This document shows, in pieces, positions 1-11,951 of a stretch of DNA of 64,000 nt; position 1 is the first letter of the stretch, and each line of letters begins with the position of its first letter. Below the pieces are notes generated by a model. That model was not told the DNA's origin and made no database searches. It worked only from the letters and a program-made list of their open reading frames with translations. The DNA lies in contig PERY01000002.1 in assembly GCA_002929055.1 (NCBI GenBank), positions 1 through 64,000 on the forward strand, in the 5' to 3' direction. The translations under genes and the position numbers were made by a program. Source of the DNA: Methylocystis sp. (GTDB taxonomy: Bacteria; Pseudomonadota; Alphaproteobacteria; Rhizobiales; Beijerinckiaceae).

Positions 1-1170
1 GCCAACCTTCGGATGGCGGAGATCAACGAAGCTTATGAGGTTCTCAAGGACCCAGATAGGCGGCGGACATATGACAAAACGCGCGAATTAAATGAACAAG
101 CTCAGGATGGGCAGAACGGGCACAAGGAAGCGGAGGAAGCCGCTACGCGCAAACATAAAGAGCGACAAACCGAGCAAAGAAAGGCGAACAGCGATGCCCT
201 CAAAAATGATTGGGAGATCGTTTCAGAATATTACCCGGACCTCAAAGAAATTGATCTTCGTCTTTCTAAAATATCATCTCAACTACACCTAGAGTATGTG
301 GCTTTTATGCTAGAACAAAAATCATTTGATAATAGACTTTCTCAAGCTGCATTCATGGAGGAGCAGTATCTCCGTAAGTATTTTGGATCAAATAAAGATA
401 TAATTACATTCGGACGTCATTTGGTTTTATCCGGGAACAAGCCTGCCGCTAAAGAGCTCAATAGAGTTGTTTCATTACTTGGTAGCAGCATAGTAGCGGA
501 TGATATCATACCAAAAATCGTCAAGGATTTTGAGCTGTTTCATATCCATAGGAAAGGCAGCTCTCAGGGTGCAGATGAGGCATCGAAACATCAGACAGCA
601 CGCATCGAAGAAAGCCAGAGGGCTACGCTTTCGCAAATTCAGCAACTACCTCCGAAAATCCAACGAAAATTGACGACATACTTGTTTGAGAAGATAGACA
701 AATCTGTGCGGCCCGCGCTTTTTGTAATGTTTGCTTTGTCAGCGGCATCCGGGGTGCTGTCCAACTTTTCGACGCACTCGGCACCATTACCTCAACCGCA
801 TACACAGGGCAAAAATAAAGACAGTAAAATTATCGAACAAAGGATATCGACAACAATAGAAGAGGCATTTATAGTTTCTGCCGAAAAGCTCAATTCCCAA
901 TCTCCTAAACAAATCGACGATATGACAACACTTTATGGGGCAATTGCGAATGATAAAAAATTCACCTATGTCTATAAATTAAATACTTACGCCAATCAGA
1001 TTGATAGAAACAAACTTAGGGCGGAAATTCTTCCGAAGCTCGTTTATGAGCGCTGCAATCAGAAGACCGCAAAAAATACAATACACAATGGTGCCGTGTA
1101 TGCTTACAGATATATCGACCTCGTCGGCGATTTTATCGATGAGTTAGAGGTAAGTCATTGTGCGAATTAA
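1..1170 (+). CDS. J-domain (DnaJ-like) protein, 5' end outside window
   Basis: The frame is open from base 1, so the start lies upstream; about 389 residues are visible. The first visible residues (EINEAYEVLKDPDRRRTYD) are the last helix of a J domain, which stimulates the ATPase of DnaK-type Hsp70. The diagnostic HPD loop would be outside the window. A charged Gln/Lys/Glu-rich stretch follows. One probable membrane segment (ALFVMFALSAASGVL) lies about 230-250 residues in, then a roughly 130-residue tail with no domain I recognise. Base composition is clearly more AT-rich than the core genome to the right, as expected for mobile-element cargo. It is not a canonical DnaJ, because Gly/Phe and zinc-finger regions are absent. 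Confidence 0.75.
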   Translation, partial: ANLRMAEINEAYEVLKDPDRRRTYDKTRELNEQAQDGQNGHKEAEEAATRKHKERQTEQRKANSDALKNDWEIVSEYYPDLKEIDLRLSKISSQLHLEYVAFMLEQKSFDNRLSQAAFMEEQYLRKYFGSNKDIITFGRHLVLSGNKPAAKELNRVVSLLGSSIVADDIIPKIVKDFELFHIHRKGSSQGADEASKHQTARIEESQRATLSQIQQLPPKIQRKLTTYLFEKIDKSVRPALFVMFALSAASGVLSNFSTHSAPLPQPHTQGKNKDSKIIEQRISTTIEEAFIVSAEKLNSQSPKQIDDMTTLYGAIANDKKFTYVYKLNTYANQIDRNKLRAEILPKLVYERCNQKTAKNTIHNGAVYAYRYIDLVGDFIDELEVSHCAN

Positions 1171-1274
1171 TCGCTATCAAAATCTAAGCCGAGCATGTCC
1201 GCTGCCAACCGCACGTCTTCACTTACACCAGCGGCCATGCAACCGACTGCTAATTGAGAGCTTATGGCATAGTT

Positions 1275-1652
1275 TCACGCTTGCACGGTCCTGCTCGGCG
1301 GATACCAAAGCGCGCTGAATGCGCCAGTGGAAGCACGCTGCCGCCCGCCGCGCCAGCAACGCGAACGCGTGTAAGACATCCGGCGCAGAGCGTCGGCAAC
1401 CTGCCCGGCCTGCGCACCCCGCCCGCCGACGCCCCGCAACCTCCTGCGGATGGTTTCGAGTGACAAGCCCTCGCCCTGCACTTCAAAAGGGATTTCTGCG
1501 AGCAGCTTCGCGAGGCGCACGTCCAGCGGAATGAGCCGTTGCCGAGCCGCCTGCGCTGCGGCGCGGGCCTTCTCTTCGCGGGCGTCCTCGTGGCGAGCAC
1601 GCTCGGCTTCGGCGGATCGTTGCAGGGTTTGGACGTAGGCGGACATGGACAT
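1275..1652 (-). CDS. small hypothetical protein of the mobile element
   Basis: This is a 125-residue protein of unknown function. The start (MSMSAYVQTLQRS) is chosen because GGAG lies about 9 nt upstream; a TTG five codons earlier would overlap that site. The N-terminal half is a strongly charged Ala/Arg/Glu-rich helix, probably coiled coil (about residues 8-45). A short segment follows (LDVRLAKLLAEIPFEVQGEG), then a basic region containing SLETIRRRLRG that could be a DNA-binding helix. The gene lies directly downstream, on the minus strand, of an operator-like inverted repeat (1686-1706) and next to the iteron array. A regulator or replication accessory is plausible, but no family is recognised. 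Confidence 0.5.
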   Translation of the reverse strand: MSMSAYVQTLQRSAEAERARHEDAREEKARAAAQAARQRLIPLDVRLAKLLAEIPFEVQGEGLSLETIRRRLRGVGGRGAQAGQVADALRRMSYTRSRCWRGGRQRASTGAFSALWYPPSRTVQA

Positions 1653-1685
1653 TGTCGAGGGCTCCAAAATTGAAGTTGCGGTGAT

Positions 1686-1713
1686 TTCACATTATTTTAG
1701 TGTGAATTGTCAA
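1686..1713 (-). promoter_or_regulatory. operator-like inverted repeat with -35-like hexamer
   Basis: TTCACA (1686-1691) and TGTGAA (1701-1706) form a perfect 6-bp inverted repeat with a 9-nt AT-rich spacer. On the minus strand a TTGACA hexamer (1713-1708) immediately precedes it, so the repeat overlaps the likely promoter core of the small gene starting at 1652. This is the usual geometry of a repressor operator. The binding protein is unknown. Confidence 0.4.
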
Positions 1714-1815
1714 GCCTGTCGCCGCTCTGTGGGCCTACGCAACCATTCAACGCGTTATTTCTAAACCCCGGTTTCGAGCCCCTTTTTCCTCTGGGAACCT
1801 TCTTCCGCGCATTTA

Positions 1816-1940
1816 GGTCGTAGCGGTCGTAGCTCACCTGGTTTTCCGGGCTTTTTCGGTCGTAGCGGCCCTCTGAAATTCTTAAACCCGCTACGACGTG
1901 TTTTCCTTTATTTTTCAATGCCGCTACGACCGCTACGACC
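1816..1940. repeat. symmetric iteron array: six copies of a 9-mer
   Basis: GGTCGTAGC occurs at 1816-1824, 1825-1833 and 1858-1866. Its reverse complement GCTACGACC occurs at 1890-1898 (8 of 9 bases), 1923-1931 and 1932-1940. The two halves are mirror images about position 1878: a tandem pair, a single, then an inverted single and an inverted tandem pair. Centres of neighbouring sites are 32-33 bp apart, close to three helical turns, so the sites would face the same side of the DNA. The sequence between the repeats is not itself palindromic. Position beside a Prim-Pol primase and a helicase-like ATPase suggests an origin, a partition site or a shared operator. Confidence 0.75.
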
Positions 1941-1989
1941 TATTTGCGTGTTTGGAGGTCTCAAGTGCGAAAAACCTCCCCGCTCAGCC

Positions 1990-3819
1990 TTAGGAGCCCT
2001 CACCAAGAACGGCCGCCGTCAGCACGTAAACGCGGACATTCTGACCTCCGACCTTCCTGACCGACGCGAGGTTCTTTTGGTCTTGGCGGCGAAGCATCCC
2101 ATTCGCCGCGAGCGTCTTGGCGACGAAGGCCGGGTCCTGACCGTCGCAGAACTCGCTCTTCCACACCTCGGCGGTTATCCACCACTCGCGCTCAGCGCCC
2201 TCGCCCTTGCGCCAGCCGAGGCGGCTGTGAACCTTGTCGATGCCTATGTTGCTCTCGACATCCGAGAGCGTCTCGAAGCGGCTCTCGCCATAAAGGGCGA
2301 TCATGCGGCGGACCTGTTCGACGGCCTGACGCTCCTCATAGGAGCCCGCGCCGCCGCGTTTCGCGAGCCACGCCGCGAACGCCTCCTCGGACGCGCGACG
2401 GGCGCTGCCCTTCGTCCATGGCGCGATCCTGAACGTGATCGCCAACTCGCCAGCGACGGCGGCGAGGGCGAAGCGCTTAGCGGCTCGGCCGACCTGTTCC
2501 GCGGCACACTTCGGGACCACCTTTTCGATGAACTTGGCCATACGGTCTTTAACGATCGCGGCGAGCTGCGCCTGATCGTGATTGAGCAGCGCGCGAACGA
2601 AAGCCGGGCCTGCTGTTCCATACGCTGAGCCGGCGGCTTCCTTGAACGCGTCGGCCAGTTTACCGGCATGGGGCTTACCCGTGGCGTCGATAAAGCCTTC
2701 CGCGCTGTCAAACGCGCCGAAGCCGAGCCCTCGATTGGCGGGGACATCCAAGAGCCTGACGGTCTGTCCAGCGCGCACCTTGCGGCCGCGATCTTCTTCG
2801 ATCTTCGTATCGACCGACACCTCGCTGCTCGACAGGAGCTGCATCCGCCAGCTATTGGCCTTGCGCGCAGAGCCGTCGCGATTGGCGCGCCCCTTCCCCA
2901 CGCCGTTGGCCAGCCGATAGATGGACGGACCGACTTCGCGCGCTTCTGCAACGCCAAGCTCATCTAGAATGAGGCAGGTGTCGCTCGCGCTCGCGGCCGC
3001 GCCCTCAAGGCCGTTTGACGTGGAACTCCACGAACGGATGAAGCCATTCTTATCGGAGCCTTTGCCCCAAACGCTCGCGCCGGCACACAGCAGAGACGAC
3101 TTGCCGATGGAGGTCTGTCCGAGAAAGTTGAACCCGCCGCTCTCGGCGTTGACAAGCTCGGCAAGCGGTCCGCTGAGCGCGATGCTAATGGCGAAGCGCG
3201 CAAAAGCGTGGTCTGCCGACAACGCGCCGACGCCAGCCTGCCAGTCCTTCAGCGCGCCCTTCGCGTCGTAGGGGCCATGCGCGACGCTGTTGAGGATCAC
3301 GCGTTCGTCGAGGCCAGACGAAGCGATCGTCTCACTCGGCAGCACGAAAGCGAAGCTTTTGTCGATCTTGTGCCAGCCCGTTCGTTCGACGTGAGTGACG
3401 CGCGTGGGAACCTTCACGCTCGAAAGATACTCGGTAATATCGCGCTGATGCGCACGGCTGATGCTCAGACCCTCGCTGGCGAGCTTTGCGCAAAGAGCGG
3501 CCTGATCGCCGTGGAGCTCCGCATCGGTGACATGCGCGTCATGCACCCGACCATCGGCGTCGCGAAAGCGAATGAGCTTACCCCACTCGCGTCCGTTCGG
3601 ATCGCGGCAAACGCCGAGCACCTCGAAAGGATGGCTCACCTTCACGGTTTCGACACGCGGGTTATTGCCGCCGCCCTTGACCTCTTGTTTAGTAAGGCCG
3701 TTCTGTTCGTCCATGACGAAGCGACCGAACGAAATGAACGTTTCGGCTTTCAGCACGTTGGCAATCGAGCCGTCTTCGATAGCTGCCACCATCTCTTCAC
3801 GCGTCATCATCTTAGTCAT
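1990..3819 (-). CDS. DUF927-family helicase-like ATPase
   Basis: This 609-residue protein matches the DUF927 superfamily, large ATPases found in integrated elements and phage satellites next to primases, where they are thought to act as replicative helicases. A Walker A-like loop (GQTSIGKSS, about residues 234-242) and a Walker B-like strand (LILDELG, about 283-289) are visible. The C-terminal third resembles a winged-helix DNA-binding region (DKVHSRLGWRKG). The ATG at 3819 overlaps the end of the primase gene by 8 nt (ATGACTAA), which implies translational coupling. A longer open frame upstream lies inside the primase gene and is not used. It is the last gene of the minus-strand operon, and the iterons lie just beyond it. 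Confidence 0.85.
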   Translation of the reverse strand: MTKMMTREEMVAAIEDGSIANVLKAETFISFGRFVMDEQNGLTKQEVKGGGNNPRVETVKVSHPFEVLGVCRDPNGREWGKLIRFRDADGRVHDAHVTDAELHGDQAALCAKLASEGLSISRAHQRDITEYLSSVKVPTRVTHVERTGWHKIDKSFAFVLPSETIASSGLDERVILNSVAHGPYDAKGALKDWQAGVGALSADHAFARFAISIALSGPLAELVNAESGGFNFLGQTSIGKSSLLCAGASVWGKGSDKNGFIRSWSSTSNGLEGAAASASDTCLILDELGVAEAREVGPSIYRLANGVGKGRANRDGSARKANSWRMQLLSSSEVSVDTKIEEDRGRKVRAGQTVRLLDVPANRGLGFGAFDSAEGFIDATGKPHAGKLADAFKEAAGSAYGTAGPAFVRALLNHDQAQLAAIVKDRMAKFIEKVVPKCAAEQVGRAAKRFALAAVAGELAITFRIAPWTKGSARRASEEAFAAWLAKRGGAGSYEERQAVEQVRRMIALYGESRFETLSDVESNIGIDKVHSRLGWRKGEGAEREWWITAEVWKSEFCDGQDPAFVAKTLAANGMLRRQDQKNLASVRKVGGQNVRVYVLTAAVLGEGS

Positions 3820-4837
3820 TTTCCACCCCCCGCTCATGATATTCCGGCGACCGATCCCATTGACGCGGCGCGCGCCAACCGTTCTCTTCGGCCCGATGGC
3901 GAAGCGAGCCGAGCGTGATCTTCTTGCCGGAGTAGTTGCTACCGAAGCTCCCCCAGCGCGCCTCGAAATCCGTTTCCGCCGCCTTGTCGGGACAGCGGTT
4001 AGAGAATTTCTTCCACAGCGCGAGGCCAACAGCGCCATCGTCGAAGTCGTGAAGCGCGAACCCAACATCTCGCCAATGGCGATAGTCGCTCACATAGCTG
4101 TCAGGCAGCGCGTCGAGCATGGACATGATGATGACAATATTCGTCGGATTGACAGGCAGGCGCTTAAAGAGGTTCGTGTTTTCGCCAAGCGCGAGATCGT
4201 TATGCGAGAGCTCGCCAAGCGGCGTGCGGCGCGGCTTCGACGACAAGCCATCGGCTTTCGCAGCTTCCGCTTCGATAAATTCGAGCAAGCCTTCCGGCAG
4301 TGTCGCCGGCTTCACGCCGGACACGACCTCATACCGGCCGCCGCTCTTATGCAAAGACGGCGGGAGCACGCAAAAGCCGCGATCACCCTTCACGTCGAGT
4401 TTGATCGAAGTGTTCGCGCGCGTCGTGACGTGAAAGCCCGGATGGCGAAAGTAGCGATGCAGACCGCGCCCGCTGCCGCTATGCACAGTGAAAGTCTCCG
4501 GCAGAGCGCCATGCCCCTCTTCAAAAGAGGCAAGGACGGCTTCGCCTTCAGGCCCGTCGCTTTCGACTACTACGATGCTGCTGATAGCGCCGGTAATGAA
4601 GCCGACGCCACCCGAAAACTTCGCGTGCCAATCCTTCAGTTCGTCGTCAGTGACGCGGCGCTCTTGAAGGTCCGTCCATTTGACCGCAGGGCACTTTTTT
4701 TCGGGGCTTCGCGGAACGACATTGAAGCCGCGCTTGTGGAATTCTCGCGCCCAGCGATAACAACGATCAGCCTCGCGAAAGGCTTCGTCGTCATCGTCGT
4801 CGAAGCCCTCGACAATGAGAGCGCGGAAGGCTCTCAC
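3812..4837 (-). CDS. Prim-Pol type DNA primase/polymerase
   Basis: This 341-residue protein has a bifunctional primase/polymerase N-terminal domain (about residues 25-190) and a C-terminal primase-associated helical domain of the PriCT type (about 235-325). Visible motifs are VVVESDGPEGE (acidic metal-binding motif), HSGSGRGLHRYF and the RGFCVLPPSLH segment. It probably primes, and perhaps extends, replication of the element together with the adjacent ATPase. The start is a GTG at 4837 that overlaps the stop of the upstream peptidase gene by 4 nt, with GAGGTG upstream as ribosome binding site. The first acidic residue of the usual Asp-x-Asp pair appears as Glu here. Confidence 0.85.
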   Translation of the reverse strand: MRAFRALIVEGFDDDDDEAFREADRCYRWAREFHKRGFNVVPRSPEKKCPAVKWTDLQERRVTDDELKDWHAKFSGGVGFITGAISSIVVVESDGPEGEAVLASFEEGHGALPETFTVHSGSGRGLHRYFRHPGFHVTTRANTSIKLDVKGDRGFCVLPPSLHKSGGRYEVVSGVKPATLPEGLLEFIEAEAAKADGLSSKPRRTPLGELSHNDLALGENTNLFKRLPVNPTNIVIIMSMLDALPDSYVSDYRHWRDVGFALHDFDDGAVGLALWKKFSNRCPDKAAETDFEARWGSFGSNYSGKKITLGSLRHRAEENGWRAPRQWDRSPEYHERGVEND

Positions 4838-5583
4838 GGCGACACCTCAGCGACTAACCGAATGATGTCATCGCAAGCGTGCTGAGCCTGCGGCGAGATG
4901 GTGCAAGAGGCGCTCACACCGCCTTGCACGCGCTTCAGAATTTTTCTGACGGACGGTGAGGAAGCCGTAATTTTCTTGCGCTTTTCCAGCAGTTCCGCGA
5001 GGGCCTCAATCTCTTTCGCATATCGCTCAACCAGCGCCGCCGCCTCGCGGACGGTCTTGATCCAAAGGCTTTCAGGATCAACGAACAGCAGTTCCGCAGC
5101 ACGCTCGACACAAATCCGCGCCCCGACCAGCTCCGCAATAGACGACGCCAGCGAGCCGGACTGCGACAGAAGCTCTTCGGCGATCGGACCTGCGAGCGTG
5201 GCGCGAGCTTCAGCCAGAAAATGCGGAGCATCGACATAGCTCCCAAAATCGCGCGCACGCTGCGCCAGACCGCACCACTCGTGGCCGTTAGAGCCACCGT
5301 TAATTTTTGCGGACCACGCAATAAGATTTTCGGCTTCAAAGGCGACGAGATGACCACACTCGTGAATGGCAGCGTCATCGAGGCTCGCAGAACGTGGCGG
5401 GCGCGTGAAAAGAAAGCGATTAAGCCGGTCGATCGACACAAAACGATCGACACTCGCATTATTGCCGTAAGCAACCTGCGCGTCGTGAGAGATGAGCCTC
5501 ATCCGGTTTCGCGTTGCGGCGCACGGCGTGCCGCCAAAGGACGAGTGCGGTTGCGCCGCTTTCGGGCGAGTGCTATTCGTCAT
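4834..5583 (-). CDS. M41-like zinc peptidase domain protein
   Basis: This 249-residue protein carries an HExxH zinc motif (AIHECGHLVAFEAE, His74-Glu75-His78) and, some 55 residues later, AGPIAEELL. The spacing and wording resemble the peptidase domain of FtsH (HEAGH and GGRVAEE), family M41. No AAA ATPase domain and no membrane segment are present, so it would be a free-standing peptidase. The C-terminal region (about 150-205) is helical and coiled-coil-like. The start at 5583 is preferred because AAGGTGG lies 9 nt upstream; an ATG at 5610 gives 9 extra residues. It sits in the replication operon and overlaps the primase start by 4 nt. The substrate is unknown; cleavage of a host or element regulator is conceivable. 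Confidence 0.7.
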   Translation of the reverse strand: MTNSTRPKAAQPHSSFGGTPCAATRNRMRLISHDAQVAYGNNASVDRFVSIDRLNRFLFTRPPRSASLDDAAIHECGHLVAFEAENLIAWSAKINGGSNGHEWCGLAQRARDFGSYVDAPHFLAEARATLAGPIAEELLSQSGSLASSIAELVGARICVERAAELLFVDPESLWIKTVREAAALVERYAKEIEALAELLEKRKKITASSPSVRKILKRVQGGVSASCTISPQAQHACDDIIRLVAEVSP

Positions 5584-5609
5584 GATGTCCAACCACCTTG
5601 AATTGTTCA

Positions 5610-5641
5610 ACCCGGTCGGCGATTGGCGTCACCGACCGGGT
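5610..5641. promoter_or_regulatory. 10-bp stem-loop between alpA-like and peptidase genes
   Basis: ACCCGGTCGG (5610-5619) and CCGACCGGGT (5632-5641) form a perfect inverted repeat with a 12-nt loop. It lies just downstream of the AlpA-like gene (ends 5664) and about 27 nt upstream of the peptidase start (5583). No T-run follows on the minus strand, so it is not a clear terminator. It may be an operator, an RNA-processing hairpin or a partial terminator that sets the ratio of regulator to replication genes. Confidence 0.45.
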
Positions 5642-5663
5642 AGTTTCGTTTTCAGGGGAAGAG

Positions 5664-5894
5664 TTAGGCCGCCGCTTCGGCGCTGGCGTGCCTCTTGTCG
5701 GCGATATAGGCGTCGGCCGCATTGAGGTCGAACAGCGTCACACCGGGCGACATCTTGATCGGCTTCGGGAACAGCGGATCGTCGCCGACGCGACGCCACG
5801 CGGTCGCAGGCGAGATACCCAGGTAAACGCACAGGGCGCGCATCCGCGCGTAGCGGCGCACCGGTGTAGAGGTTTGTGACCCTTTGATTTTCAT
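5664..5894 (-). CDS. AlpA-like DNA-binding protein (excisionase/activator)
   Basis: This 76-residue basic protein has a MerR/AlpA-type winged helix-turn-helix (ALCVYLGISPATAWRRV, then FPKPIKM and the wing). AlpA and similar proteins of P4-like elements act as excisionases or as activators of integrase genes. The ATG at 5894 is preceded by GAGG, and that site lies inside the 3' arm of a perfect palindrome (5897-5927), so access to the start may be controlled. Position between the integrase block and the replication block is typical. The exact role, excision or transcription control, cannot be told from sequence. Confidence 0.8.
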   Translation of the reverse strand: MKIKGSQTSTPVRRYARMRALCVYLGISPATAWRRVGDDPLFPKPIKMSPGVTLFDLNAADAYIADKRHASAEAAA

Positions 5895-5896
5895 TT

Positions 5897-5927
5897 TTTG
5901 ACCTCGCTGATACTGAGCGAGGTCAAA
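5897..5927 (-). promoter_or_regulatory. 12-bp palindrome covering the alpA-like ribosome binding site
   Basis: TTTGACCTCGCT (5897-5908) and AGCGAGGTCAAA (5916-5927) are perfect inverted copies with a 7-nt loop. Read on the minus strand, the 3' arm contains the GAGG ribosome binding site of the AlpA-like gene and ends 2 nt before its ATG (5894). As RNA the stem would hide the start; as DNA it is a perfect dyad operator. It is not a terminator, because no T-run follows on either strand. Confidence 0.6.
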
Positions 5928-5947
5928 GTAGACACGGTGGAATTTTT

Positions 5948-6370
5948 TCAGCTATTTGGCCCGACAATTTTTCGCATGGCGACGATGCGCTTCCACAAAG
6001 CGCGGCGTCCAACTCCAAGGCTCTTATTTTGACTTACCATGCGTCGAACGACAGCCGAAGGCGATAGGCGCAAATTCAAAATGAGCGACGTGTTCTCTTC
6101 CGCGACGCGCTCTAATTTTTTCAGTGCGTCTTGTTTTCTTCTCTTATTCGCATTGTTGCGGTCCTCGCGATACGCGTTGCACACGCCCTCGCTTACCCGC
6201 TGCCGGCGATATTCTTCGCGGTAAGCTTTAATTTGATCAACCGCTTTTTGAGTGATGTTCGGCCTCACGCTGAGGGCGTCGAGAGCTGCATTGATGGATG
6301 CAACAGCGTCTCTCATCCAATCGAAAGGGGCCGGGTTCCGTGGCCGTCCCACCTTGCACTTCAATTTCAT
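5948..6370 (-). CDS. hypothetical basic protein downstream of integrase
   Basis: This 140-residue, highly basic, Arg/Lys-rich protein has no family I recognise. The central part (about 60-95, with EDRNNANKRRKQDALKKLE) is predicted helical and charged, probably coiled coil. The C-terminal part (SPSAVVRRMV...VGRRALWKRIVAMRKIV) may form a DNA-binding helix-turn-helix. The ATG at 6370 overlaps the integrase stop by 4 nt (ATGA), so it is translationally coupled to the integrase. A role as recombination accessory or small regulator would fit its position, but this is inference from context only. Confidence 0.6.
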   Translation of the reverse strand: MKLKCKVGRPRNPAPFDWMRDAVASINAALDALSVRPNITQKAVDQIKAYREEYRRQRVSEGVCNAYREDRNNANKRRKQDALKKLERVAEENTSLILNLRLSPSAVVRRMVSQNKSLGVGRRALWKRIVAMRKIVGPNS

Positions 6371-7599
6371 GCGCGCCCCCTCAGTGCAATGACGTTTGGC
6401 GACGAGCCGGCGTCATCCACATGCTGCGCCCATGCCTCCATGAGCGCGCGTCGCTTTTCGAGAGCATCCCCGCGCCGGTAGGCTTGCTCTGCCTTGTCGC
6501 CAATCACATGTGCCAATGCAGCTTCCGCGACTTCGCGCGGAAAATGCGTCTCGTTCCCCGCCCAGTCACGAAAGGCGCTGCGGAAACCGTGAACCGTGAC
6601 GTCGTCTTGCTTCATTCTGCGCAAGACCATTTCCATAGCCATCGACGAAAGCGGCTTGTCGGCACATTGACCCGGAAACACGAACTCGCCAACGTTCGCC
6701 TCGGCGAGCTTCTTTAGGACGGCAACGGCGCGGCCGGATAGCGGGACGCGATGCTCCCGCGCCGCCTTCATGCGCGACGCAGGGACGGTCCAGACCCTCG
6801 CCCCCATCTCGATCTCAGCCCAGCGCGCGCCAAGAACCTCGCCCGAGCGCGCTGCGGTCAGGATGGTGAACTCCAAGGCAATCGCCGCGATGGCTTCGCT
6901 TCCCCGCAATTTGACGACGAATGCCGGCACATCGGCGTAAGACATCGCCGGGTGGTGGCCGCGAGAGAGTTGCTGGCGCTTCGGCAAGAGCTTGTCGAGA
7001 TGGCCGCGCCAGCGGGCCGGGTTGGCGTCGTTTTGCGGAATATGACCCTTAGCGCGCGCGGCGTCTAACACGACTTCGATCCGCCCTCGCAGGCGCGCGG
7101 CGGTTTCCGGCTTTCTGTTCCAGATCGGTTGAAGGACCGAAAGGACCGCCTCTGTGTCGATTTGCTCAACGGGCCGGTTTCGCAACGGCGCGGCATATTT
7201 TGTTAGGGTCATTCGCCATTGCGCGCCGTGTTTCTCATTACGCCATTCCGCGCTCTTGGCCTCTATGAACGCGTCGGCGACGTTCCCGAAGGTCGGCTTG
7301 CCTGCTTGCTCACGCCGTGCCGCTTCTCGCGCCGCAATCGGGTCGCGCCCCGCTCGAACAAGGCGTTCAGCTTCGTCTCGGGCCTTACGCGCCTCCGCGA
7401 GCGAAACAGCCGGAAAGCCGCCGATCCCCATTTCGCGCCGCTTGCCACTCCAATTGAAGAGGTAGAGCCAACGGCGTCGCATCGTCGCGCCCTCGCCGTC
7501 GATGACGAGATACAGCGACCCGCCATCAGAGTGACGCCCGGGCTGCAAAGAGAGTGCTGCCACCCCTCTTGTCGTCAGTTTGTTTCGCGCTCGCGCCAT
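6367..7599 (-). CDS. P4-type tyrosine integrase
   Basis: This 410-residue protein catalyses site-specific integration and excision of the element. The N-terminal DUF4102-type arm-binding domain (about 1-95, including a DGGSLYLVI motif) and SAM-like core-binding domain (about 100-190) precede the catalytic domain. Catalytic residues are readable: Arg251 (TAARSGEVLG), His337 and Arg340 (HGFRSAFRDW), His364 (AHVIG) and Tyr374 (EQAYRRGD). It is the first gene of the minus-strand block and marks the right end of the element. Integrases of this type often use the 3' end of a tRNA gene, but no tRNA is visible between here and 7800. Confidence 0.93.
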   Translation of the reverse strand: MARARNKLTTRGVAALSLQPGRHSDGGSLYLVIDGEGATMRRRWLYLFNWSGKRREMGIGGFPAVSLAEARKARDEAERLVRAGRDPIAAREAARREQAGKPTFGNVADAFIEAKSAEWRNEKHGAQWRMTLTKYAAPLRNRPVEQIDTEAVLSVLQPIWNRKPETAARLRGRIEVVLDAARAKGHIPQNDANPARWRGHLDKLLPKRQQLSRGHHPAMSYADVPAFVVKLRGSEAIAAIALEFTILTAARSGEVLGARWAEIEMGARVWTVPASRMKAAREHRVPLSGRAVAVLKKLAEANVGEFVFPGQCADKPLSSMAMEMVLRRMKQDDVTVHGFRSAFRDWAGNETHFPREVAEAALAHVIGDKAEQAYRRGDALEKRRALMEAWAQHVDDAGSSPNVIALRGRA

Positions 7600-7611
7600 C
7601 GGCTCCGCCTA

Positions 7612-7635
7612 ACTTCCGGCCCCACTTCCGGCCCC
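7612..7635. repeat. tandem 12-bp repeat upstream of integrase
   Basis: ACTTCCGGCCCC occurs twice in direct tandem (7612-7623, 7624-7635), followed by a partial third copy (ACTT). It lies 13 nt upstream of the integrase ATG, near where the element should meet the chromosome. Repeats in this position may be integrase arm-type sites or an integration footprint. The matching left-end sequence is outside the window. Confidence 0.5.
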
Positions 7636-7804
7636 ACTTTAGAATTGAGATCGGATGATGCGTCGGGAGATGGCTTGCGTCAATACCATTAAATATCTGC
7701 ATGTTATTGGATGATTGAGACGGTGAGAGATGCGGAGAGACGGGTTTTCGGCGGACACCTCTTCCGCCAATTGAACCCGCCGCGAGCATGAATTGGAGAC
7801 GGAT

Positions 7805-8131
7805 ATGACGCGTTTTCTTGCAACTTTTGCTGTCTCCGCGAGCCTCCTTCTCGCGGCCGGAGTCGTCCATGCGCAGACGCCCGAACCTGCCACTCCGGCC
7901 CCGGCCGCAGCGACGCCAGTCGCGCCGCCGGCCCCGGACTGCGCCGCTCAGGCGACCGACAAGAAGCTCGCCGGCGCCGCATTGACCAGCTTCATGAAAA
8001 AATGCGAGCGCGACGCCGTCGCGAAGGGGTGCGAGGTCCAGGCGGCCGATAAGAAATTGAAGGGCGCCGCGAAGGCCAGCTTCACGAAGAAATGCGTGAA
8101 GGATGCAGCCGTCGCTCCAGCCGGCCAGTGA
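7805..8131 (+). CDS. PsiF-repeat secreted protein
   Basis: This 108-residue protein has a clear signal peptide (MTRFLATFAVSASLLLAAGVV, cleaved after HAQ) and a Pro/Ala-rich linker. Two PsiF-type repeats follow (QATDKKLAGAALTSFMKKCE and QAADKKLKGAAKASFTKKCV). PsiF repeats are named after a phosphate-starvation-inducible E. coli protein whose biochemical role is unknown. The start at 7805 is chosen because GGAG lies just upstream (ggagacggatATG). It is the first gene of the core genome to the right of the mobile element. Confidence 0.8.
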   Translation: MTRFLATFAVSASLLLAAGVVHAQTPEPATPAPAAATPVAPPAPDCAAQATDKKLAGAALTSFMKKCERDAVAKGCEVQAADKKLKGAAKASFTKKCVKDAAVAPAGQ

Positions 8132-8282
8132 GCCTGGGCGGCGCGCCGCGCGGCTGGCGATGAGGACGACGACCAGACCCGCTCACGTCACAATCCCGCC
8201 CTCAGGCCGGGTGAAAGTCCTTCGTGGAATCACAGCTTGCGCCCCGCATTGTGGCGACGCGCCGCGAGAGGAAAAGAATAAG

Positions 8283-8594
8283 ATGTTCGAGATTGGAACG
8301 GCTCGCGCCGCCTTTGTCTGCAGCCTGCTGCTCCCAGCGTTCCTCGCGCAGCCGGTTTCCGCGCAGCAGCAGAATTACCGCCAATATCGCGAAAGCCTGC
8401 AGCAGGAGGGCTGGAAGCCCGTTACGAGCTACGGTCTGAAGACGGCTTCGGGAAAACCGCTCTACCAGTTTCCCGAGCTCGTCTGCGGCCCGGAGCTTTG
8501 CCTTGCAAAATGGCGCGACAGGCAGGGCGCGGAAAAGTCGCTTTCGGTCCTGCGCGGCAAGACGGCGGACGATTATCAACTCGTCTCCCAGTAA
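8283..8594 (+). CDS. small secreted hypothetical protein
   Basis: This 103-residue protein has an N-terminal signal sequence (AAFVCSLLLPAFLAQPVSA, probable cleavage after VSA-QQ). The mature part is about 77 residues, with two cysteines close together (VCGPELC) that may form a disulfide and a Trp/Arg segment (LAKWRDRQG). The start at 8283 has GAGAGG upstream. No family is recognised with confidence. It is followed within 13 nt by another small secreted protein gene on the same strand. Confidence 0.6.
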   Translation: MFEIGTARAAFVCSLLLPAFLAQPVSAQQQNYRQYRESLQQEGWKPVTSYGLKTASGKPLYQFPELVCGPELCLAKWRDRQGAEKSLSVLRGKTADDYQLVSQ

Positions 8595-8607
8595 ATTCGA
8601 AGTTCTG

Positions 8608-8850
8608 ATGCGCGTCGTTGCAGCGATTCTTTTTTCCGCCGCCCTTGCCGCGCTTAGCGTCTCTCCGGCGAACGCGCGGCGCGGCGCGCGCGGCGCCCCG
8701 CATGCGGCGCTCTCTGGAGAGCCTGCGGCCCCGCCGGGCGTGAAGGCGCGCGCGGACGAGAAGAACATTTCGACCGAGAAGGGCGGGCCGTGGGGCGGGT
8801 TCTACGGCGGCTTGAATTCCGGCAGGGCGTGGAGCGACGAGGCGCGCTGA
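8608..8850 (+). CDS. small exported hypothetical protein
   Basis: This 80-residue protein has a signal peptide (MRVVAAILFSAALAALSVSPANA). The mature part is short and low-complexity, Ala/Arg/Gly-rich, ending with a Gly/Trp segment (GGPWGGFYGGLNSGRAW) that resembles the start of outer-membrane porin-like proteins of Rhizobiales. The short length could therefore mean a remnant. The ATG at 8608 follows the previous gene by 13 nt. No function is assigned. Confidence 0.45.
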   Translation: MRVVAAILFSAALAALSVSPANARRGARGAPHAALSGEPAAPPGVKARADEKNISTEKGGPWGGFYGGLNSGRAWSDEAR

Positions 8851-8861
8851 CTTTCGCCGCG

Positions 8862-9656
8862 TTACGCCCGTCGCGCGTTCTGAATCCGCAGAATCAGGCC
8901 GAAATCGACGCCCATGCCGCCTGAAGCTTCGAGCGAGGCGCCGTAAAGTATTGCGTTGGCGTTCGACGCGCCGGTCTCGATTGCTCCGGCGTTCTTCAGA
9001 TCGTACATCGCCGCAAAGCGCGCAATGAAAGCGTCGAGCTTCCTGGGGTCGGCGAAGTCCTTGATGTCGAGCTTCGCCTTGAGAAGGCGCGCCTGCGTGT
9101 CCACCGGTTGGGCGGAGGTTCTGGGTGAAATGTCGAGCCCCGTCTGCACGACCTCCAGCAGCTTCTTATCGGCGAGAACGCCGTAAATCGTCGTGAGCTT
9201 CGGAGCCTTCTCGCGAAAATAGAGCGCGAGTTCGACGGCGCGGTTTTGCTTTCCCTGCTGGCTCTGCATCGCCTGCTCGACATAGCGGGCCTTCACATCC
9301 GCCGTGAGCGCCGCCGAGGGAACGGCTGCGCCCTTGCCCGCGAAGTCGAAAGCCTTGACGAATGCGAGGATATTGGGGTCGCGCAGCGTATTGGCGAGCG
9401 CTTTCGGATCAACGGCGCCCTGCTCCAGCGCCTTGCGCATCAGGCCGAGCGCAAATGTCTTGTCGCCGAGCCCGAAGGCCTTCATGGCGTAACTGAACAA
9501 CCGCCTGTCCTTCAACAGCGCGTCGATCGATGTCGCCTTGCCGATGTTGGCTTCGAAATATTTCGTCTCCCCGGCCACGTCCGGCGCTTTCGCCGCGACC
9601 GCGCGCCATCGGCCAAGGTCGTTGGCGACCATAAGATAGGAGTTCAACGTGGTCAT
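8862..9656 (-). CDS. DUF1217 family protein (flagellum-associated)
   Basis: This 264-residue protein belongs to the DUF1217 family, common in alphaproteobacterial flagellar clusters but also found singly. Family members contain repeated helical segments with FSYAMKAFGL- and DPNILAFVKAFDF-type motifs, both present here. There is no signal peptide or membrane segment. No other flagellar gene is in this window, so the copy is isolated; its precise role is not known. The start MTTLNSYL is used, with no better upstream alternative. Confidence 0.75.
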   Translation of the reverse strand: MTTLNSYLMVANDLGRWRAVAAKAPDVAGETKYFEANIGKATSIDALLKDRRLFSYAMKAFGLGDKTFALGLMRKALEQGAVDPKALANTLRDPNILAFVKAFDFAGKGAAVPSAALTADVKARYVEQAMQSQQGKQNRAVELALYFREKAPKLTTIYGVLADKKLLEVVQTGLDISPRTSAQPVDTQARLLKAKLDIKDFADPRKLDAFIARFAAMYDLKNAGAIETGASNANAILYGASLEASGGMGVDFGLILRIQNARRA

Positions 9657-9759
9657 CGCGCAGGCCTGCTGCGGGGCGCAGAACGCTGCGCCGCCTCAAC
9701 CGAAATAATACATCAGCCTTGCCGCGATCTGACATCCGTTTCGCGTCGACATTAATGCG

Positions 9760-10584
9760 CTATTTCTTGCAGGGCGTCGCCGCAGTGATGGCGAGTTCCT
9801 TCATCTCCCCCTTGAGAACGAAATCGCCGTAATCGAGCTTCAGGGCGCGCGAGACGCCATTCTCGTAAAGATCGAAGGAGAGCACATAGATCGGCTGGCC
9901 GTCGCGCTTGCCGGGCTCGAAATAGGAAACCGCCGTGGGCCAGCGCGCCATCCCCTTGAGCGCGTCGAGTTGCGCCGCCTTCTCGGGCGCCGGGGCTGGC
10001 GAGGCCTTGCCGATCACCGTCAGCGTGTCGAAGGCCTTGCCGCCGTCTCCGGTGCCGTCATAAACGCGCGCCTCGATGAGCGTTTCGCCCGCGCGGGCCG
10101 CCTCGACGACCTTGCGCAAATGCTCGGTCGGGAAAAGCGCGGGCCCGCGAATGTCGAGATGCGCGCGCTTGGGGCGCGCGATGTCGACGGCGAGCTTGGC
10201 CTCCACACCCTTTTGCGCCTTGCCGTCGACGGACTCGGCGAGGGTGTTATCGATTCGGGTTTCGACATTGAAACGATAGTTGGACGCGTCGAGCGCCTCA
10301 TATGTCGCCGAACGCATGTCCGAGAGCTTGCTCGAGCCTTCCGGCGGCTGCATTTCCGTGATCTGGCGAAAATTCTGCACATAGCCGTCGCAGGAGACGG
10401 AAAAGTCGAAGGCGATTCGGCCGCGCGCCTGCGCGGGAGCCTTGGCGCCAGAGCCTCTGTCCAGCGACAATTCGTAGACGGCGCGGTGGCTTGCGAAGGG
10501 CATCGGGGCCTCGGCATGCGCAGCCGTGATCGACAAAGGCGCAGCGGCGAGAGCGGCGGCGGCGAGCGCGCGGGGCAAGATCAT
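9760..10584 (-). CDS. EipB-like (DUF1849) periplasmic envelope protein
   Basis: This 274-residue protein has a signal peptide (MILPRALAAAALAAAPLSITAAHA). Its mature domain matches the EipB/DUF1849 family (ASHRAVYELSLD, RGRIAFDFS, FRQITEMQPPEG, ALKLDYGDFVLKGEM). Characterised members form a spiral beta-sheet shell in the periplasm and support envelope integrity. Two conserved cysteines, one in VSCDGYVQNF and one near the C-terminus (TPCKK), could form a disulfide as in the family. The start at 10584 has AAGAGG upstream; a longer frame adds 16 basic residues that would spoil the signal peptide. Confidence 0.8.
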   Translation of the reverse strand: MILPRALAAAALAAAPLSITAAHAEAPMPFASHRAVYELSLDRGSGAKAPAQARGRIAFDFSVSCDGYVQNFRQITEMQPPEGSSKLSDMRSATYEALDASNYRFNVETRIDNTLAESVDGKAQKGVEAKLAVDIARPKRAHLDIRGPALFPTEHLRKVVEAARAGETLIEARVYDGTGDGGKAFDTLTVIGKASPAPAPEKAAQLDALKGMARWPTAVSYFEPGKRDGQPIYVLSFDLYENGVSRALKLDYGDFVLKGEMKELAITAATPCKK

Positions 10585-10698
10585 CAGGCCTCTTCTTTTG
10601 CGGAAGACGAGCGCGCCGCCATTGCGTCGCACGGTGGACGAAATTAGGGTCAGCCATGCTGGGGAGCAAATGTTTTCTCTAAAAAGGGAGGGAGGGTC

Positions 10699-11181
10699 AT
10701 GGCCGCTTCAGAAGGCGCCGCGCCGCTCGAGCGTCTTGCCGCCCTGGGGCTCGTCCTGCCGCCAGCTGCTGCGCCCGTCGCCAATTACGTTCCATTTGCG
10801 CGGACCGGAAATCTGCTGTTCGTCTCGGGACAACTGCCGATGGGCGCCGGCGGCGTCGATCCATCGCACAAGGGCAAGCTCGGCGCCGGCGTTTCTCTCG
10901 AGGACGGCCAGGCCGCGGCGCGCCAGGCGGCGCTCAACGTGCTGGCGCAAGCTAACGCCGCTGTCGGCGGCCTTGCGAAGCTGAAGGCCGTCCGCATCGG
11001 CGGCTATGTCAACAGCGCGCCGAACTTCGGCCAGTTGCCGCAGGTCGTCAACGGCGCCTCGGATCTCTTCGCCGCTGTGCTGGGCGAAAACGGCCGACAT
11101 GCGCGCTTCGCTGTCGGGGTCGCGCAACTCCCGCTCGACGCGGCGGTGGAAGTCGAAGGGATATTCGAAATCCTGCCATGA
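10699..11181 (+). CDS. RidA family protein (enamine/imine deaminase type)
   Basis: This 160-residue protein of the RidA/YjgF/UK114 superfamily typically hydrolyses reactive enamine or imine intermediates released by PLP enzymes. It contains LLFVSGQLP, a conserved Arg/Ala-rich helix (AARQAALNVLAQ) and the C-terminal VGVAQLPLDAAVEVEGIFEI strand pair. The roughly 25-residue N-terminal extension places it in the longer YjgF-like subgroup rather than classic RidA. A strong AGGGAGGG ribosome binding site precedes the ATG. Its end overlaps the following phosphodiesterase gene by 4 nt. Confidence 0.88.
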   Translation: MAASEGAAPLERLAALGLVLPPAAAPVANYVPFARTGNLLFVSGQLPMGAGGVDPSHKGKLGAGVSLEDGQAAARQAALNVLAQANAAVGGLAKLKAVRIGGYVNSAPNFGQLPQVVNGASDLFAAVLGENGRHARFAVGVAQLPLDAAVEVEGIFEILP

Positions 11182-11951
11182 CCAGCCGCGATCTCGCCTC
11201 GATGACGGCGCAGCCGATCGCGCATCGCGGTCTGCATGACGAACCGCGCGGCCTTATCGAGAACTCGATCGGCGCGGCGATGGCGGCGATCGCCGCGGGC
11301 TACGCGATCGAATGCGACGTTCAGGCCACGAAGGACGGCGATCTGGTCGTCTTCCACGACGACGCGCTGGATCGGCTCACTGTGCAGGCCGGCAGGGTTG
11401 GCGCGCGCACGGCGCGTGAGCTCGCGGCGATAAAGCTCAGGGGCTCGCACGAAACGATCCCGACCTTCGCGGAGTTTCTAGCAGCCATTGGCGGGCGCGC
11501 GCCGCTCGTCGTCGAAATCAAAAGCGACTTCGACGGCGCCGTGGCGGCTGCGCGACGCACGGCCGAGTTGCTCTCGCGCTACGACGGCCCCGTCGTTATC
11601 GAGAGCTTCGACCCCGACCCGATCGTTTTCCTTCGCAAGAATGGCGCGGCGCTCGGCGTCGCGCATATTCCGCTGGGCATCGTGAGCGAAGCGGCCTATG
11701 GCGCGAGCGACTGGCCGATGTTGTCGCAACAGCAGCGGCTGGAAATGACCCATTTCCTGCACTATCCGCGCACACGGCCGGATTTCGTCTCGTGGAATGT
11801 CGCGGACCTTCCGCACGCGATCCCCTTTCTCGCGCGGGAAGGCTTGCGCATCCCCGTGACCGTATGGACCGTGCGTTCACGCGAACAAGCCGCCACAGCC
11901 TTGAAATGGGCGGATCAGATTGTCTTTGAAGGCTTTGCGCCTTCGTTCTGA
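11178..11951 (+). CDS. ugpQ: glycerophosphodiester phosphodiesterase
   Basis: This 257-residue cytoplasmic GDPD-family enzyme hydrolyses glycerophosphodiesters to sn-glycerol 3-phosphate and an alcohol. Visible catalytic motifs are AHRG near residue 15, IENS, ECDVQATKDGDLVVFHDD (metal-binding Glu/Asp and the second His) and VVEIKSDF. The C-terminal VTVWTVRSREQ and FEGFAP strands complete the TIM barrel. No signal peptide is present. It overlaps the RidA gene by 4 nt, so the two are probably co-transcribed. The symbol follows the cytoplasmic E. coli type. Confidence 0.88.
   Translation: MTSRDLASMTAQPIAHRGLHDEPRGLIENSIGAAMAAIAAGYAIECDVQATKDGDLVVFHDDALDRLTVQAGRVGARTARELAAIKLRGSHETIPTFAEFLAAIGGRAPLVVEIKSDFDGAVAAARRTAELLSRYDGPVVIESFDPDPIVFLRKNGAALGVAHIPLGIVSEAAYGASDWPMLSQQQRLEMTHFLHYPRTRPDFVSWNVADLPHAIPFLAREGLRIPVTVWTVRSREQAATALKWADQIVFEGFAPSF

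Follow-up and report, generated by a model that had tools for sequence, protein, structure and literature searches.

Origins of SaPIs have been described directly 3' of the helicase gene, and the C-terminal domain of the SaPI Rep protein recognises iterons located directly 3' of its own gene; binding by the C-terminal domain has been shown for Cch2 (excerpted text of PMC7581432). In Gram-negative PICIs, namely several from E. coli, the origin consists of two iteron sets around an A+T-rich region and lies 3' of the initiator gene; the rep-ori segment of one of them, EcCICFT073, maintains a plasmid in E. coli, less well when the ori is missing (excerpted text of PMC6092414). In the P4 record (NC_001609), crr with its type 1 repeats is annotated directly 3' of alpha, and a second set of repeats is present at the annotated ori. 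In the archaeal plasmid pRN1, a stem-loop located 3' of the gene for the primase-helicase is required (excerpted text of PMC4234260).

Here we analysed a stretch of 64,000 nucleotides from Methylocystis sp. (the window), in which six 9-bp sites follow a DUF927 helicase gene. We consider it very probable that a small integrative, satellite-like element starts its replication at this array and that the array is bound by the DUF927 helicase of this element. The origin reading, one of several offered in a preliminary description of the locus, has gained good support, because the array is placed directly 3' of the helicase gene, as are the SaPI and Gram-negative PICI origins, P4 crr and the arrays in 44 of 78 clusters of related loci. 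The same description regarded the arrangement as not of a standard type. As SaPI, PICI and P4 origins share its placement, this part is unsupported, and the array is most likely an origin of this known kind with an unusually tidy layout.

The six-site array and its host element

The array (1816-1940) is composed of five exact GGTCGTAGC sites and one site with a single mismatch (CGTCGTAGC), with start-to-start spacings of 9, 33, 32, 33 and 9. Added together, the coordinates of each mirror pair give 3756 (1816+1940, 1825+1931 and 1858+1898), and the centre therefore lies exactly at 1878. Six 9-mers, one of them mismatched, in mirror order about this point had been noticed in the preliminary description, and we could confirm them with exact positions (Table 1); the spacing of 32-33 bp given there fits only the three inner steps, the outer ones being 9. 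It was also roughly right that the sequence between the sites is not palindromic, but complementarity between the outer arms (1783-1833 and 1923-1973) reaches 75% over 51 nt, a figure biased upward by the arm-finding tool, which lengthens arms while identity is high. Outside the sites, about 20 of 33 arm positions are complementary. The A+T content is 52% at the array centre and 71% in one side gap (1899-1922), with no strong central A+T-rich segment. By shuffling, a weak test here, the symmetry of the six sites was not significant (p 0.087; 0.022 for the nearest relative, L005).

Within the window, 26 GGTCGTAGC sites with at most one mismatch were counted, six of them inside 125 bp, compared with 13.3 in 100 shuffles (sd 4.2, largest 24). 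In the genome assembly to which the window belongs (3.01 Mb, 89.4% complete), exact GGTCGTAGC is present 39 times, 34 of these outside the array, versus 56 occurrences of the reversed control word. The word is thus not enriched genome-wide, and its clustering is the special feature. The preliminary description had made its reading depend on the 9-mer not being equally frequent elsewhere in the genome, and no other clustering was indeed found there. The exact 18-bp doublet occurs twice in the assembly, both times within the array, and at one other place with two mismatches; among 397 genomes of the order it was detected in this genome and two others, once in each of the latter (L034/G516 and L035/G617).

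Genes of the element run leftward in the order integrase, 140-aa, 76-aa and 258-aa proteins, Prim-Pol and DUF927 helicase, followed by the array, which starts 49 bp beyond the helicase stop codon (1990-1992). The Prim-Pol and helicase genes overlap by 8 bp if the helicase starts at 3819. The helicase reading frame is open, and the gene gives the only DUF927 match in its genome. Contig C2 and the window start at the same base; another contig, C61 (3,335 bp), carries a tRNA-Ser gene and ends within an apparent DnaJ-domain gene that continues in the window, so that this gene is probably split across the two contigs, with its start on C61. Integrase-arm-like repeats are found near both 16-bp copies of the attachment core, on C61 and in the window. 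The gene continuation, the 16-bp core and the arm-like repeats lead us to infer that an element about 8.35 kb long, which has one array, is inserted at tRNA-Ser. The junction of C61 with C2 is likewise inferred and not assembled. Both an integrase and a specific attachment site are present in the element, the far end being on the other contig. When flanking DNA was used to look for an empty site in 39 genomes of the genus, 29 matched, mostly only over 7920-8110, and none showed an empty site; the search pointed to contig C61.

No packaging or capsid gene was recognised among the eight element ORFs (Pfam, PHROGs), PADLOC returned no match when five of these eight proteins were scanned, and an Rfam scan of window positions 1-8200 gave nothing at gathering scores. 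Two further types of origin were considered for this element and rejected: a RepA iteron-plasmid origin, as Pfam and PHROGs detected no RepA/Rep_3-type initiator in the eight ORFs, and a P4-type two-site origin, as neither a second array nor another site within one mismatch of the repeat turned up in the searched element parts (window 1-1815 and 1941-11577, and the element part of C61). At window 1740-1764 and at 3121-3145 of C61 (L175) lie two copies (92%) of a 25-bp sequence around AACGCGTTATTTC, both apparently intergenic and in the same element.

Table 1. Positions of the array, its sites and the surrounding features in the window
Feature	Position	Strand	Basis
DnaJ-domain protein, probable cargo	1..1170	+	PF00226, weak (under its cut-off)
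ORF of 130 aa past the array, without known family	1275..1667	-	Pfam, PHROGs
Mirror array of six sites centred on 1878, proposed replication origin	1816..1940	.	layout in L005; arrays likewise placed in 44/78 clusters
Outer iteron doublet, GGTCGTAGC twice head to tail	1816..1833 (1816-1824, 1825-1833)	+	exact matches
Inner iteron	1858..1866	+	exact match
Inner iteron, inverted, CGTCGTAGC	1890..1898	-	one mismatch
A+T-rich gap (71% A+T), possible but weak melting segment	1899..1922	.	composition
Outer iteron doublet, inverted	1923..1940 (1923-1931, 1932-1940)	-	exact matches
DUF927 helicase, 609 aa, proposed initiator	1990..3819	-	PF06048, E 5e-67; profile matches PDB 5dgk, 8tch
Prim-Pol primase with PriCT_2	3812..4837	-	PF09250, PF08707
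258-aa protein	4834..5610	-	no match in Pfam or PHROG
Small protein of 76 aa, resembling AlpA by eye only	5664..5894	-	no Pfam match; weak PHROG 4996 (function unknown)
140-aa protein	5948..6370	-	no Pfam match; weak PHROG 12624
Tyrosine integrase	6367..7599	-	PF00589, PF13356, PF22022
CGGCCCCACTT repeats, probable integrase arm sites	7617..7649	+	partly repeated on contig C61, 88% over 33 bp
Attachment core, 16 bp	7756..7771	+	identical to tRNA-Ser 3' end on contig C61 (2758-2773)

Arrays and helicases of related elements

DUF927 relatives with E of 1e-10 or better were found in 32 of 248 genomes of the family, the present one included. The nearest relative, L005, belongs to the same genus and its helicase is 61% identical; it has six sites in the same mirror order, spaced by 9, 33, 30, 33 and 9, five of them within one mismatch of GGTCGTAGC and the sixth two bases off. 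When the two arrays were aligned, 50 of 54 site bases agreed, as against 39 of 70 bases between the sites. Two other relatives have close variants of the repeat: L015 carries GGTCGTAAC in eight sites with full mirror symmetry, whereas the GGGCGTAGC sites of L008 are not mirrored.

The survey covered 142 loci, i.e. the window, 126 loci from two scans of genome and viral collections (the best 80 of 98 in one, the matches listed in the other) and 15 of the 29 genome relatives L005-L033, with L012, L017, L020 and L023-L033 excluded as partial or distant. Exclusion of L021, L051, L071 and L101, which had no stop or fewer than 300 bases beyond it, left 138 loci. Greedy clustering at more than 80% C-terminal similarity gave 78 clusters, the window forming one of its own; in the L136 cluster of 21 near-identical viral loci, the gene end is approximate by a few codons. 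Scores were computed de novo from 9-mers that recur, on either strand, within 330 bp past the helicase gene, and 4.5 or more was regarded as strong. Applied to known systems, the array scan recovered GGTGAACA of P4 and GGTAGACA of EcCICFT073 at the expected places (no control tile scored as high among 31 and 144, respectively) and an array with inverted outer triplets in phiAH14b (0 of 45). It gave no signal in phage vB_Pae_U10, in which 8 of 26 control tiles were as high with 8-mers and 18 of 26 with 9-mers.

Strong scores were obtained within 330 bp 3' of the gene in 44 of the 78 clusters (window included), compared with 44 of 2,423 control tiles from the same loci. In 42 clusters the score after the gene exceeded every control tile of its own locus, and in 45 the best tile of the whole locus overlapped or adjoined this place (offset -220 to +330). 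Against the origin reading, 30 of the 78 clusters scored below 4.0 after the gene. These array-poor clusters include the largest one, L054, with 27 pseudomonad loci, and L036 (3.8), which holds L007 from the genus of the window. In several of these clusters an array is found at another place, +110 to +3,080 bp away or about 5.8 kb upstream. In the representative of L054, a cluster of CGTGTAACG repeats lies upstream, about 5.8 kb from the helicase stop, and there is no array after the gene; the origin may have moved away from the helicase gene in this cluster. In L057, L064, L077 and L097, strong arrays were situated about 1.1-1.3 kb past the DUF927 gene, which is roughly one gene length. Genes that follow the arrays differ, for example an IS66 transposase gene in L005 and a phage portal gene in L125 (7497-8699) and L160 (9059-10279); because of the portal gene, the latter two look like satellites or prophages that bear capsid genes.

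Symmetry and second arrays were studied in 43 strong arrays and co-variation in 41; here the threshold of 4.5 was applied to a segment whose start lay 20 bases earlier. Five to twelve sites were present per array, and head-to-tail sites were kept in most of them. Full mirror symmetry was found in six of the 43 (L041, L067 and L159 with 12 sites, L015 with eight, L005 and the window with six) and was incomplete in the other 37, with site phase and orientation assigned automatically and ambiguous where a repeat is near-palindromic. In nine arrays, the window not among them, symmetry exceeded that of shuffles at p <0.05. The exact order '++-+++' was observed in L018, L042, L050 and L123, and close variants of it in seven others (L044, L053, L063, L119, L125, L128 and L160). 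The preliminary description would count as refuted if homologous elements lacked the symmetric arrangement while keeping the primase/ATPase genes, and on this the outcome is mixed: the closest relative keeps the mirror, while many more distant relatives retain repeats with incomplete symmetry (37 of 43 arrays) and 30 of the 78 clusters have no strong array past the gene.

In 11 of the 43 loci, the repeat of the helicase-proximal array forms another cluster 2-8 kb away (L125, L053, L160, L130, L044, L063, L119, L128, L106, L112 and L114) versus none of 43 for the reversed word. Seven of these loci were viewed; the gene preceding the second array could be identified in five and encoded an integrase in every case. 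The second array lay at most 30 bp past the integrase stop in L125, L053, L160 and L130 and about 560 bp past it in L044, and fell inside crude ORF calls in L119 and L063. Such second arrays suggest a P4-like two-site origin.

The profile of the window helicase matched PDB 5dgk, which is SCCmec Cch (E 2.9e-27), and 8tch, a protein of a pathogenicity island (E 4e-23), and its match to the NCBIfam model of SCCmec Cch1 was weak (64 bits, cut-off 700). With the profile of the C-terminal domain alone, no convincing match among solved structures was obtained (best E 0.39). Repeat letters vary among elements (e.g. AGGTGTAAC, AGGTGGAAC, AGGTGCTAC and CGGGGTTAC), their family likeness being judged by eye. 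Over 41 arrays, the distance between repeats correlated with that between residues 491-609 (Spearman 0.352) and with that between ATPase cores (0.254). In partial Mantel tests, whose permutations ignore shared ancestry, the correlation of repeat with C-terminal domain given the core was 0.267 (3 of 2000 permutations as high), and that of repeat with core given the C-terminus was 0.09 (297 of 2000). That the repeat tracks the C-terminus better than the core points, at the level of sequence, to the last ~120 residues of the helicase as the proposed iteron-binding domain.

Taken jointly, these observations allow a broader reading which we offer tentatively, as possible rather than probable. In proteobacterial satellites, DUF927 helicases might form one evolving recognition system together with the origins, in which a 9-bp, mostly GGT-headed repeat changes its letters with the C-terminal domain of the helicase and is laid out in at least two geometries. 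Single mirror arrays (window, L005, L015, L041, L067, L159) might seat two opposed helicases, and asymmetric '++-+++' arrays, several of them paired with a second array of their repeat kilobases away (just past the integrase gene in four checked elements), might act as a P4-like two-site origin. Were this true, array geometry would set the mode of replication start.

Proposed function and alternative readings

In the mechanism we propose, the C-terminal domain of the DUF927 helicase would bind the six 9-bp repeats, and each of the two inverted half-arrays would seat one hexamer, or part of it, in opposite orientations. DNA between or beside the half-arrays would then melt and the two helicases would move apart, with the neighbouring Prim-Pol priming synthesis once the integrase has excised the element, which may live as a satellite.

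The alternative that deserves most attention, though we find it unlikely, is a stem-loop origin like that of pRN1, in which the inverted repeats would work through single-strand folding and not (only) as protein-bound duplex. The array of the window folds as single-stranded DNA far better than shuffles (z -8.45), and so do those of its mirror-symmetric relatives L005 (z -4.78) and L015 (z -10.42) and the non-mirror arrays L110 (-3.38), L106 (-2.88), L050 (-2.23), L018 (-3.30) and L042 (-3.49), i.e. eight of the nine tested (z -2.2 to -10.4). However, inverted repeats fold by construction, and the ninth array, L123, was unremarkable (z -1.31, 22 of 200 shuffles as good). The kinds of fold also differ; since mirror arrays pair their ends and '++-+++' arrays form a local hairpin between neighbouring sites, there is no single shared fold, and the head-to-tail sites retained in most arrays are of no help to folding. 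In pRN1 itself, the authors found no iteron-based origin (excerpted text of PMC4234260). Slightly less likely again is an operator or other regulatory site, at which a small regulator (the 76-aa or 140-aa protein) would control ORF 1275-1667 or transcription would be stopped. The array does lie between this ORF and the helicase gene, and the promoter scan gave one promoter-like match on the - strand (1722-1694; mean 0.2 in shuffles). Two terminator-like matches, of which one falls within the array (+ strand), compare with 1.3 in shuffles, and we see nothing convincing in the promoter and terminator matches. On the other hand, arrays follow the helicase gene in elements in which the next gene differs (portal or IS66 transposase), the repeat tracks the helicase C-terminus, five to twelve sites exceed a usual operator, and the regulatory hub of the preliminary description would stand downstream, not upstream, of the primase and helicase genes.

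Iteron-like arrays serve as plasmid centromeres too, and this would favour a centromere-like partition site, also considered in the preliminary description. We regard such a site as very improbable, as the element is integrated and none of its eight ORFs matched a partition protein (Pfam, PHROGs, E 0.01). Hardly credible at all is chance or a decayed element, that is, an ordinary word repeated without function. GGTCGTAGC occurs 34 more times in the genome, but within its own genome the exact doublet is confined to the array; L005 keeps both layout and site letters though the intervening sequence has diverged, strong arrays recur at this place in 44 of 78 clusters, and the helicase frame has stayed open.

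If the array is the origin, an unannotated repeat becomes a testable origin for widespread, little-studied integrated elements, and its six symmetrical sites offer a minimal substrate for how self-loading, MCM-like helicases get set in opposite directions. The two array geometries and the repeat/C-terminal co-variation seem to us most worth following; the latter could be read as a recognition code, which would aid prediction of origins from sequence.

Comparison with described origins

Like the array of the window, the pRN1 origin lies 3' of a primase-helicase gene, and the array is foldable too. Unlike it, the pRN1 origin is defined by a stem-loop, and its authors found no origin there by iterons (excerpted text of PMC4234260). 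As with the sites of the window, the type 1 repeats of P4 (GGTGAACA) stand in 9-bp tandem pairs and in inverted orientation, and the region that contains them starts 45 bp past alpha. P4 differs in having a second site (ori) about 4.5 kb off, whereas the window element has one array, and in that alpha is one protein.

In EcCICFT073, iterons are found immediately 3' of the primase/rep gene and include two outer inverted doublets, as in the window. However, there are ten sites as opposed to six, and the outer doublets face the opposite way relative to the GGT head. One primase gene (pri-rep) is annotated instead of the Prim-Pol and DUF927 pair, and the centre is described as AT-rich (excerpted text of PMC6092414), a feature that is weak in the window. 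In the window, two iteron sets are present as mirror images, with 52% A+T at the centre and 71% only in 1899-1922. For the AlpA regulator of Gram-negative PICIs, the 76-aa protein is a candidate by eye, with no Pfam match.

SCCmec Cch (5dgk) and 8tch are sequence homologues of the window helicase, though distant. SaPIs possess a DUF927-type self-loading helicase (Rep of SaPIbov1 being related to the DUF927 protein Cch), a primase, and iterons directly 3' (excerpted text of PMC7581432), the likeness of their origin to the array being drawn from this published description. Two features of a SaPI/PICI rep-ori are present in the window element as well, namely a DUF927 initiator helicase with an adjoining primase, and iterons immediately 3' of the initiator gene.
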